Assembly (NCBI GenBank): GCA_029938215.1
Contig: JAOZVJ010000003.1
Location: forward strand, 1 to 34,158
Reading direction: 5' to 3'
DNA length: 34,158 nucleotides
Source: Arcobacteraceae bacterium
GTDB lineage: Bacteria; Campylobacterota; Campylobacteria; Campylobacterales; Arcobacteraceae
Shown one piece after another: positions 7,844 to 14,198 of the stretch. Below the pieces are notes generated by a model, which saw only the letters and a list, made by a program, of their open reading frames with translations, had not been told where the DNA came from and did not search any database. Both the position numbers and the translations under genes were made by a program. Positions within the stretch are counted from its first letter, which is position 1. Each line of letters begins with the position of its first letter.

Positions 7844-8045
7844 TTTCTATTTTTATATTATAATCTTTATCTACAGAATATTCTATATCGTTATCGTTAA
7901 GTTTTTCTGTAATTTCTAACAATTCACCTATAGCATAAGTAGAATCATGAGAATTATAAAAAATACCATCATCATTTAAATCATAATAAAATAAATTTCC
8001 AAAATAAATTTTTTTTAAATCTTCAAGATTTATCGTATTTTTCAA
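7836..8045 (-). CDS. Hypothetical small acidic protein overlapping the response regulator (track ORF 7836..8093; TTG start at 8045 plausible)
   Basis: Open frame LKNTINLEDLKKIYFGNLFYYDLNDDG...; overlaps RR 3' end. Confidence 0.5.
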   Translation of the reverse strand: MKNTINLEDLKKIYFGNLFYYDLNDDGIFYNSHDSTYAIGELLEITEKLNDNDIEYSVDKDYNIKIEIN

Positions 8046-8673
8046 TCCTATAACCTTTCGATACATGATTTCTAATAATATCACAAGGAACACTTTTTCT
8101 AAGTTTAGAAATAAGTTGCCTTACATATCCATTTCCTACTGTTTCTCCCCAAACATAATCTTCAATATGTTCAGTATATACAGTTTTACCAATATTATTT
8201 ATAAGTATATATAAAAGTAAAGTTTCTTTTTTTGTTAGCATTACCATTTTATCTTTATGAAATAATAACTTTTTTACTGGATTATAAATGCATTCTTTAC
8301 TTAAATGTATTATTTGTGATGATTGCAATAATTCACGATTTATTTTTAAAAGAACTTCTCTTACATCAAACGGTTTTTTTATATAATCATCGCAACCTAA
8401 ATCATATGCTTTAATTATTGTATCAATATCTATACAACCACTTATAACAAAAATTTTATTATTACTATCAATTAATTTAATTTGTTTTATTAATTCCAAA
8501 CCACCCATATTTGGTAAACCAATATCAATTAAAAAAATATCAAAATCAGCAGATATATTTTCAAAAGCTTTTATTCCATCTGTGAAAGAAAAAACTTTAT
8601 AACCTGTAAGTTCTAATGTTTTTGTAACAATTTTATTTAATTCTTTATCATCTTCAACTAAAAATATTTTCAT
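8023..8673 (-). CDS. OmpR/PhoB-type response regulator
   Basis: Receiver FDIFLIDIGLPNMGG...; winged helix GNGYVRQLISKLRKSV...VSKGYRIEK. Confidence 0.92.
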   Translation of the reverse strand: MKIFLVEDDKELNKIVTKTLELTGYKVFSFTDGIKAFENISADFDIFLIDIGLPNMGGLELIKQIKLIDSNNKIFVISGCIDIDTIIKAYDLGCDDYIKKPFDVREVLLKINRELLQSSQIIHLSKECIYNPVKKLLFHKDKMVMLTKKETLLLYILINNIGKTVYTEHIEDYVWGETVGNGYVRQLISKLRKSVPCDIIRNHVSKGYRIEKYDKS

Positions 8674-8721: not shown

Positions 8722-9192
8722 TTAATAATTTTTTTGTTGACTATGTATAAAAGCTACGGCAATAGCATCAGTTATATCTAGAGGTTTTATTTCTTTTTTT
8801 ATATTTAAAAGTCTTTTTACCATAAAAGCCACTTGTTCTTTTTTTGCTTTTCCATTTCCAGTAACCGCTTTTTTAACTTGCAATGGTGTATATTCACTAA
8901 AATTTCCTATCTCTTGAAGTATCTTAAGACTTAATGCTCCTCTAAATTGAGCTAATTTAATTACAGTTTTTGGATTATGAGCAAAAAACATATCTTCAAT
9001 GGCTACTTCATTTATAATATGGTTACCTAATATTAAATCAATTCCTTCTACTAATTCTAAAATTTGTTCTTGTAATATTCTACTTTTTATTTTAATTAAA
9101 CCAGCTTCAATTAATTTTGGTTTTTTATTAACTATTTCTAAAATTGCATATCCACAATTTATAGTTCCAGGGTCAATTCCTAATATTTTCAC
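8722..9192 (-). CDS. ruvC: Holliday junction resolvase RuvC
   Basis: [53 protein letters not shown]. Confidence 0.96.
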
Positions 9193-9226
9193 TTTTTCAC
9201 ATCTTTCACATTAAAATTTTTCACTT
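9184..9226. promoter_or_regulatory. Candidate oriC1: cluster of TTTCAC-core DnaA-box-like motifs upstream of dnaA
   Basis: TATTTTCAC 9184-9192, CTTTTTCAC 9192-9200, CTTTCAC 9203-9209, TTTTTCAC 9217-9224. Confidence 0.5.
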
Positions 9227-9322: not shown

Positions 9323-10639
9323 TTGACTACTAAAGAGATTTTATTATTACTTAAAAAAGAAGTAACCAATAGCGATTATGAAAAATTTATTAAACAAATA
9401 GTTTATAAAAAAATTAGTTCAAGTGATGATTTGGCAGTATTTGAAGTGCCAAATAAGTTTTTAGCATCTTTTATAAAAACAAAATTTTCAAAAATTATAA
9501 AAGAAATATTTAAAACAGTTAAAGGGACAAAACCAACTATTGAAATAAAAGTTACTGGTGAAAAAAGAAGAACTAAAAAAGAAATTTTAAAAGATTCATC
9601 TTTATCACAAACTGATAATACGACTTTATTAAATCCTTCATTTACTTTTGAATCATTTATAGTAGGTAGTTCAAATCAAATGGCATATACTGCATCTAAA
9701 GCAGTTGCCCAAAAAAGTGGAATTTTATACAATCCATTATTTATATATGGTGGTACTGGATTAGGTAAAACACATCTACTACAAGCTATTGGAAATAATG
9801 CTATAGAAAATAACAAAACAGTTATTTATGTAACTAGCGAACAATTTATGAATGCTTTTACTTTTTCTTTAAAAAATAAAAATATGGAACATTTTAGAAA
9901 TACTTATAGAAAATGTGATATATTACTTATAGATGATATTCAATTTTTAAGTGGAAAAGAAGGAACACAAGAAGAATTTTTTCATACTTTTAATGAACTT
10001 CATACAGCTAAAAAACAAATTGTTATGACTGCTGATAAACTTCCTTCACAAATAGCAGGACTTGAAGAAAGATTGCAAAGTAGATTTGAATGGGGACTTA
10101 TGGCTGATATAAAAATCCCTGAACTTGAAACAAAAATAGCTATTATTGAGAAAAAAAGTGAAGTAAATGGTATTATATTAAATAAAGATGTAATTAATTT
10201 TATAGCTACTAATTTTGATAATTCTATTAGAGCAATTGAAGGTGTTTTAATACAAATAAGAGCAACAGCAGACCTTTTAGGACAAGAAATAAATCTTGAA
10301 TTAGTACAAAATTTATTAAAAGAACAAATAAAAGAAATAAAAGATAATATAAAATTATCAGATATTATAAATGTAGTATCAAGAGAACTTAATATTAAAC
10401 CAAGTGATTTAAAAATAAAAAGAACAGCAAGTGCAGTAACTGCAAGAAGAATCGTTATATATCTTTCAAGAGAACTAACACATAATTCTATGCCAGATAT
10501 TGCTAAAAATCTTGGAATGAAAGATCATAGTGCAGTTTCTAAAAATATTTCTAAAGCAAATGAATTGATAGAAAAAGATGAAAATTTTAAATTATTACTT
10601 GAAAATTTAAAAAATAAATTTATAAATAAGGATTATTAA
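9323..10639 (+). CDS. dnaA: Chromosomal replication initiator DnaA (TTG start)
   Basis: NPLFIYGGTGLGKTHLLQAIGN; ILLIDDIQFLSGKEGTQEEFFHTFNEL; domain IV GMKDHSAVSKNI. Confidence 0.98.
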   Translation: MTTKEILLLLKKEVTNSDYEKFIKQIVYKKISSSDDLAVFEVPNKFLASFIKTKFSKIIKEIFKTVKGTKPTIEIKVTGEKRRTKKEILKDSSLSQTDNTTLLNPSFTFESFIVGSSNQMAYTASKAVAQKSGILYNPLFIYGGTGLGKTHLLQAIGNNAIENNKTVIYVTSEQFMNAFTFSLKNKNMEHFRNTYRKCDILLIDDIQFLSGKEGTQEEFFHTFNELHTAKKQIVMTADKLPSQIAGLEERLQSRFEWGLMADIKIPELETKIAIIEKKSEVNGIILNKDVINFIATNFDNSIRAIEGVLIQIRATADLLGQEINLELVQNLLKEQIKEIKDNIKLSDIINVVSRELNIKPSDLKIKRTASAVTARRIVIYLSRELTHNSMPDIAKNLGMKDHSAVSKNISKANELIEKDENFKLLLENLKNKFINKDY

Positions 10640-10785
10640 AAATAAATTATAGTGAATATATGTGAATAAAATTATGTATTTATTCACTATTTCAAACTGT
10701 GTATTTTAGGTACTTTGAATATAGTTTTCATCTATTCACGCTACCTACTATTTACTACTAAATTTTAATATAAAGAGGGTTTAAA
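10640..10785 (+). promoter_or_regulatory. oriC: Chromosomal replication origin (oriC2): DnaA boxes + DnaA-trio tract + AT-rich unwinding region
   Basis: AGTGAATATA 10651-10660, TGTGAATAAA 10661-10670, TTTATTCACT 10679-10688, TCTATTCACG 10731-10740, then CTACCTACTATTTACTACTAAATTTTAATATAAA from 10741; dnaA-dnaN position. Confidence 0.85.
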
Positions 10786-11859
10786 ATGAAATTTACAATA
10801 ACTAAAAATATAATAGAAAACATAATAATATCTATGCAACCATTTTTAGAAAAAAAAGATGCTAGTGCTATTACATCTCATATTTATTTTGAAGTTAACA
10901 ATAATTGTTTAACATTAAGATCTACTGATTATGAAATGGGATTAGAAGCAACAATAAATGATATTACAAATTTTGAAGAAGGTAAATCAACTGTAAATGG
11001 TAATAATTTATTAAATATTATTAGAAGATTAAAAGATGATAATGATATTATTTTTGAAGTAATTAATAATAATTTAAATATAAAACAAAATAGATCTAAT
11101 TTTAAATTACCAATGTATAATGCTAATGAATATCCTAAATTTCCAATATTAGATAATTTAAAAGATATTGATATTAGTATTATGAATTTAATAAATTCTA
11201 TTAAAAAAATTACTCCTGCAATTGATAATACAAATCCTAAATTTGAATTAAATGGTGCTTTAATAGATATAAAATTAAATAAAATAAATTTTGTAGCTAC
11301 AGATACTAGAAGACTAGCAATTTCAAATTTAGAAAATTCAACAAATAAAGAAATGCAAATTATTATTCCTAAAAAAGCAATTATAGAAATACAAAAACTA
11401 TTTTTTGATAATGCTCTAATTAAATATGATGAAACTAATTTAGTATTATTAAATAAAAATTTAAAATTCTTTACAAAGTTAATAAATGGAAATTTTCCAG
11501 ATTATGAAAGAATTATTCCAAATAATTTAAATTATAATTTTTCATTACCTAAATCAGTTTTAATAGAATCTATAAAATTAATTACCTCTTTAAAACCAAA
11601 TATTAAAATTACATTTTCTTCTGATAATATTTTATTTGAAAGTGTTGATGAAGAAAGTGAAGCACAAACACAAATAGATATAAAATTAAATTTAGAAAAT
11701 ACATTTTATATAGCAGTAAACAGTAAATATTTATTAGATTTTTTAAGTACATCAATAAATGAAAATATAAATATAGGATTTAATGAATCAAATTTACCAT
11801 TTTGTTTAGAAGATGAAAAATTTATAACAATTATAATGCCTATAATTTTAGAAAAATAA
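10786..11859 (+). CDS. dnaN: DNA polymerase III sliding clamp (beta)
   Basis: Position after dnaA/oriC; FVATDTRRLAIS; C-terminal TIIMPIIL. Confidence 0.95.
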   Translation: MKFTITKNIIENIIISMQPFLEKKDASAITSHIYFEVNNNCLTLRSTDYEMGLEATINDITNFEEGKSTVNGNNLLNIIRRLKDDNDIIFEVINNNLNIKQNRSNFKLPMYNANEYPKFPILDNLKDIDISIMNLINSIKKITPAIDNTNPKFELNGALIDIKLNKINFVATDTRRLAISNLENSTNKEMQIIIPKKAIIEIQKLFFDNALIKYDETNLVLLNKNLKFFTKLINGNFPDYERIIPNNLNYNFSLPKSVLIESIKLITSLKPNIKITFSSDNILFESVDEESEAQTQIDIKLNLENTFYIAVNSKYLLDFLSTSINENINIGFNESNLPFCLEDEKFITIIMPIILEK

Positions 11860-11873
11860 AAATATATAACTAA

Positions 11874-14198
<2,325 letters not shown>

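Follow-up and report, generated by a model that had tools for sequence, protein, structure and literature searches.

The 146-bp gap between dnaA and dnaN (positions 10640–10785, plus strand) of an Arcobacteraceae genome was assigned, with a probability of roughly 0.94, as oriC2, the predicted unwinding half of an ordinary Campylobacterota chromosome origin with a DnaA-trio. The assignment is supported by the gene order at the locus, by conservation across both the family and the phylum, by the switch of GC skew around dnaA in a complete relative, and by a DnaA helix 5 of the Epsilon type. The anatomy, position and conservation of the gap were observed here, in a stretch of 34,158 nucleotides (hereafter the window) from contig C30 of a draft genome of 1.73 Mb in 145 contigs, and we infer all function in this organism from published relatives.

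Open reading frames and protein family matches placed the genes at the locus in the order ruvC–dnaA–dnaN–gyrB. These are ruvC on the minus strand (8722–9192; TIGR00228), a conserved neighbour of oriC, followed on the plus strand by the initiator gene dnaA (9323–10639; TIGR00362), the sliding clamp gene dnaN (10786–11859; TIGR00663; ATG at 10786) and gyrB (11883–14198; NF011501/TIGR01059), such that the gap is flanked by the TIGR00362 and TIGR00663 matches. Its location within ruvC–dnaA–dnaN is that of oriC2 in the Campylobacterota (Epsilonproteobacteria), and this origin layout was proposed for the class as a whole (PMC5043019). A gene for an OmpR-type response regulator (8023–8673) lies beside ruvC and the origin; its identity as the origin regulator HP1021/Cj1509 was not established, as it matched only OmpR-type regulators in general.

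Four predicted DnaA boxes with a TTCAC core were located in the gap, three of which fit HTWTTCACW, the consensus footprinted in Arcobacter butzleri. The first two, ATATTCACT (10651–10659) and TTATTCACA (10661–10669), are on the minus strand, both fit the consensus, and read on the plus strand as GTGAATA at about 10652 and 10662; in the alignment of relatives the inverted GTGAA pair is conserved and TGTGAA of the second box is nearly invariant. The third, TTATTCACT (10680–10688, plus strand), also fits the consensus and its TCAC is conserved in most relatives. The fourth, the DUE-proximal box CTATTCACG (10732–10740, plus strand), is R1-type and ts2-like, and departs from HTWTTCACW at the final base only. 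Immediately upstream of it is GTTTTCATC (10724–10732, plus strand), in which the eighth position is changed from C to T and which is best read, from its sequence, as a weak twin and thus a fifth box. Since the cores of GTTTTCATC and CTATTCACG are 8 nt apart, the two 9-mers overlap by 1 bp, giving the overlapping boxes on the DUE side that are looked for in a DnaA-trio origin, with the upstream member of the pair being the weak one.

The DUE-proximal box is followed by a 4-bp spacer, CTAC (10741–10744, plus strand), and then by the DnaA-trio tract CTACTATTTACTACTA (10745–10760, plus strand), the two together making up CTACCTACTATTTACTACTA (10741–10760). The bottom strand of the tract reads 3'-GAT-GAT-A-AAT-GAT-GAT-5', with a slip of register by one nucleotide after the second triplet. 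A survey of basal unwinding systems (BUS) set as its minimum three or more NAN trios, all on the same strand and no further than 16 bp from a DnaA box (PMC8287927), and the window has these in CTA CTA TTT, in frame and 4 bp past the box. Beyond the tract, the AT-only sequence AAATTTTAATATAAA (about 10761–10775, plus strand) is the start of the predicted DNA unwinding element; the run is short and passes into the ribosome-binding site of dnaN, with the Shine–Dalgarno sequence GAGGG and then the start codon. The preliminary description had listed the GTGAATA pair, the box, the triplet tract and the AT-only stretch as the elements of an oriC of the DnaA-trio type with TTCAC boxes, and all of them are present in the gap. 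The layout that it drew also stands, once the weak fifth box that overlaps the fourth is added and the break in triplet phase is taken into account.

To judge conservation, the dnaA–dnaN gaps of 98 loci from about 100 Arcobacteraceae genomes were aligned, and 79 loci from other Campylobacterota families formed a second sample; diverged loci in which the automatic anchor misplaced the tract (e.g., L192, L228 and L258) were left out of the evidence. The homologous gap is 111–200 bp long in the 98 relatives, and much of its central part shows no conservation. Recurring nearly everywhere in the 98 loci are the inverted GTGAA pair, the later TCAC, and the unit TTTTCATCTWTTCAC followed after 5 or 6 nt by CTACT. 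Box, spacer and CTACT tract were found in all 98; TTCAC and CTACT are separated by 5 nt in 90 of them and by 6 nt in the other eight. The DUE-side 9-mer is CTTTTCACA in 68 of the 98 relatives and CTATTCACA in 20. In most of the 79 loci from other families the same elements (paired boxes, short spacer, CTACT-type triplets and AT run) occur in the same order. Together with the gene order, these counts bear out the earlier proposal of an oriC between dnaA and dnaN. In family f3 the tract is often degenerate or missing; the trio of Campylobacter jejuni was also reported as degenerate (PMC6052347), and we do not equate the two. One f3 locus, L201 (G144:C1:1280–2000), has GCTACCTACTA right after the box region, with letters identical to those of the window.

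By DnaA, the relatives of the window belong to the Arcobacteraceae. A scan of genome contigs with the DNA pattern identified the same motif in Arcobacter, Aliarcobacter, Halarcobacter, Malaciobacter and Poseidonibacter, as well as in the sister genome JAGLOP010000019.1, an Arcobacteraceae MAG; matches in unrelated phyla were scattered and their number was estimated to be about that expected by chance for the size of the collection. The closest congener with dnaA was G001. No match to dnaA and no oriC pattern was identified in a third congener, G002, and the informative members of the genus are therefore two only. The DnaN protein as query against the genome contigs found no relative. Locus L094 (G045:C314) is a second, diverged dnaA–dnaN pair, with a DnaA that is 56% identical, in a MAG with 7% contamination, and probably comes from another Campylobacterota species.

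The position of the tract, 26–41 nt before the start of dnaN, and the merging of the AT run into the Shine–Dalgarno sequence raise the question of whether it is mainly a promoter and leader of dnaN (a region of autoregulation by DnaA plus a ribosome-binding site), with unwinding occurring elsewhere, for instance at the cluster of four TTCAC sites in the gap upstream of dnaA. We consider this improbable: mapping with P1 nuclease placed unwinding in the dnaA–dnaN gap of A. butzleri, S. denitrificans and W. succinogenes (PMC5043019), and a promoter leaves unexplained why, in an otherwise variable gap, the 5–6 nt distance from box to tract and the triplet spacing stay fixed across the 98 loci.

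The sequence pattern was also compared with chance expectation. There are 60 occurrences of TTCAC/GTGAA in the window, so that about 0.26 would be expected in 146 bp versus the four seen, a Poisson probability of about 1e-4 for this pre-specified gap; a 150-bp stretch with at least four TTCAC/GTGAA occurred somewhere in 29 of 300 random (Markov-1) windows, or about one in ten. For TTCAC-N3-7-CTACTA, 0.1 occurrences were expected per window. This short motif was found four times in the whole genome versus 13 times for the reversed control pattern and, being rarer than its control, is not significant by itself. With up to two mismatches allowed, the longer pattern TTCATCTWTTCAC-N5-CTACTA had a single match in the genome and its control none, and it is conserved in relatives. 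In this AT-rich genome the short pattern by itself hardly differs from chance expectation, and the origin call rests on position and conservation. That the TAC/CTA triplets are themselves a chance product of AT-rich DNA, in a DUE that works by low duplex stability alone as in trio-less origins, would agree with the poor showing of the short motif against its control and with the lack of a clean tract in part of the phylum (family f3), but is the least probable reading, given that CTACT and a distal CTA at +12 or +13 are each present in 98 of 98 loci, against a per-position frequency of 0.011 for CTD in the sequence immediately downstream, and that trio mutants of Helicobacter pylori fail to unwind with the AT-rich submodule left in place (PMC8235120).

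Assignment of the gap as a trio-containing oriC2 correlates well with what has been published for the class. Jaworski et al. (2016) mapped DnaA boxes and unwinding in A. butzleri, and reported the trio motif in all three Epsilonproteobacterial origins that were mapped, A. butzleri included, with TTCAC as a hallmark of the class (PMC5043019). A. butzleri is of the same family as the window and shares with it the ruvC–dnaA–dnaN order, the TTCAC boxes, a trio DUE between dnaA and dnaN and an upstream cluster; its tandem head-to-tail boxes were predicted and their binding was not confirmed (PMC5043019). Mutations in H. pylori showed that unwinding requires the trio, and a GC-rich spacer, the trio and an AT-rich part were described there as modules (PMC8235120). 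The oriC2 of H. pylori resembles the window in having adjoining weak distal and strong proximal boxes, a spacer of 4–5 bp, about five triplets and an AT run (PMC8235120), and differs from it in that dnaA lies outside the ruvC–dnaA–dnaN order (PMC6052347). In C. jejuni the twin DUE-side boxes (boxes 1 and 2) likewise overlap by 1 bp and lie about 5 bp from the DUE, and one of them is degenerate at its eighth position; its trio is degenerate and the origin was described as monopartite, whereas the trio of the window is clear (PMC6052347). Boxes 6 and 7 and the trio of Bacillus subtilis are also comparable, with overlapping boxes, 3'-GAT-5' trios on one strand and then AT-rich sequence (PMC6669920, PMC8287927), the box core being of the TTATCCACA type there and TTCAC in the window. 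A pairing of the trio with the TTCAC box, which the preliminary description had implied to be new, is thus not novel, since it was reported by Jaworski et al. and in the H. pylori study; published cases include A. butzleri, S. denitrificans, W. succinogenes, H. pylori and, in degenerate form, C. jejuni.

The twin boxes differ among families in which member is strong. The weak upstream and strong DUE-side boxes of the Arcobacteraceae resemble the weak ts1 and strong ts2 of H. pylori, where ts1 is a TTCC-type box and its counterpart in the window is TTCAT (PMC8235120). The unit TTTTCATCTWTTCAC is common to most of the family, and TTCAC stands in place of the weak twin in a few loci (L025, L080 and L095). 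Families f4, f8 and f10 have the reverse arrangement: TTCAC is the core of the upstream box of the pair, and its DUE-side partner is frequently degenerate (e.g., TTTTCACAATTTCATC). In much of family f7 both twins have TTCAC. The exchange can be followed at 10724–10740 of the window, at L025, L080 and L095, and at L184–L197. The window also departs in this respect from the BUS survey, in which the upstream box was usually closer to consensus (PMC8287927).

Counting against the DnaA-trio assignment is a one-nucleotide break in triplet phase in the genus of the window; the tract of the window reads CTA CTA T TTA CTA CTA. Across the Arcobacteraceae the distal CTA is 12 nt from the first, and so in phase, in 94 of 98 loci (loci binned at 15 or 16 also have a CTA at 12 by inspection), and 13 nt from it in four: the window (CTACTATTTACTACTA), its sister L002 (CTACTATCTACTACTA), L094 and L095. 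Conservation of the triplet phasing in close relatives, which had been put forward earlier as a check on the origin, consequently holds for the family and fails for the window and its only available congener. In the comparison with A. butzleri, this sets the window (+13) apart from the in-register (+12) phase of the family. In the sister only two triplets are in phase before the slip, and in the window the first three are CTA CTA TTT. The +13 form is common outside the family: among others, each of the six f4g64 loci has it, as do 12 of the 16 loci of f7g27 (L191 and L210 are examples from f4g64 and f7). It is also present in genus g68 of family f4 and in most of the f7 members sampled; the slip is therefore recurrent and not an error of a single assembly. 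Five trio repeats were described as typical (PMC8235120), and an uninterrupted register of about five is interrupted by the +1 slip in the window and its sister, as it is in f4 and f7. Such a break does not exclude the tract from the DnaA-trios, because an unbroken register is a reading of the model and not a strict requirement stated for it. It is conceivable, and we suggest it only tentatively from the sequences, that trios in the Campylobacterota can work without forming a single continuous register of triplets, the DnaA filament accommodating one nucleotide, unpaired or skipped, past the second or third triplet. No 1-nt slip is described for H. pylori in the main account of its trio, the supplementary trio alignment aside (PMC8235120); with the same reservation, we found no discussion in the literature of the slip or of the swap between the strong and the weak member of the twin pair, and make no firm claim to priority.

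A bipartite origin requires a second cluster of boxes, and one is present upstream of dnaA, where four tandem TTCAC sites (9185–9193, 9193–9201, 9202–9210 and 9217–9225) form an oriC1-like cluster at 9185–9225 (plus strand) that covers the start of ruvC and the ruvC–dnaA gap. This cluster was missed in the preliminary description, whose origin was confined to the dnaA–dnaN part. The 250 bp upstream of dnaA contain a mean of 5.0 TTCAC/GTGAA in 69 relatives. In A. butzleri, the origin is a bipartite oriC1–dnaA–oriC2 whose halves are brought together in a loop by DnaA, which opens oriC2 (PMC5043019). The upstream cluster matches this layout and is probably the oriC1 partner of the gap studied here. 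GC skew was sampled in the complete relative G102, given that the genome of the window is a draft; in twenty 20-kb pieces one flank of dnaA had mostly negative values and the opposite flank mostly positive ones. The GC skew of the window itself changes sign near dnaA, confounded with gene strand; it and the third-position skew were set aside as origin evidence because both follow gene strand, the minus-strand genes at 16.5–23 kb being negative again.

The DnaA protein is of the expected type. Alignment to solved DnaA structures and tabulation across the family showed that its helix 5, KDHSAVSK, has the Epsilon-type residues K, S, S and K at E. coli positions 432, 435, 438 and 439, which fits recognition of TTCAC. 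Residue 180 of the dnaA product, which aligns with Ile190 of B. subtilis DnaA (a single-strand-binding residue), is Thr in 92 of 98 Arcobacteraceae, and the Lys222 equivalent is invariant in the family.

Taken as oriC2, the gap would function as follows. DnaA would bind the TTCAC boxes as duplex DNA, and the pair at the tract (weak GTTTTCATC and strong CTATTCACG) would determine where a DnaA filament forms and which way it runs. The filament would then cross the 4-bp spacer and take the bottom strand triplet by triplet through its 3'-GAT-type trios, and this capture would melt the tract together with the AT run that follows, leading to helicase loading. The upstream cluster (oriC1) would probably loop to oriC2 through DnaA, as in A. 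butzleri.

These results place the likely origin of an uncharacterised Arcobacteraceae lineage and show the published layout to be shared throughout the family. The locus matters little otherwise, except for the 1-nt slip, a natural variant that lends itself directly to asking whether DnaA has to engage the trios in an uninterrupted three-nucleotide register.
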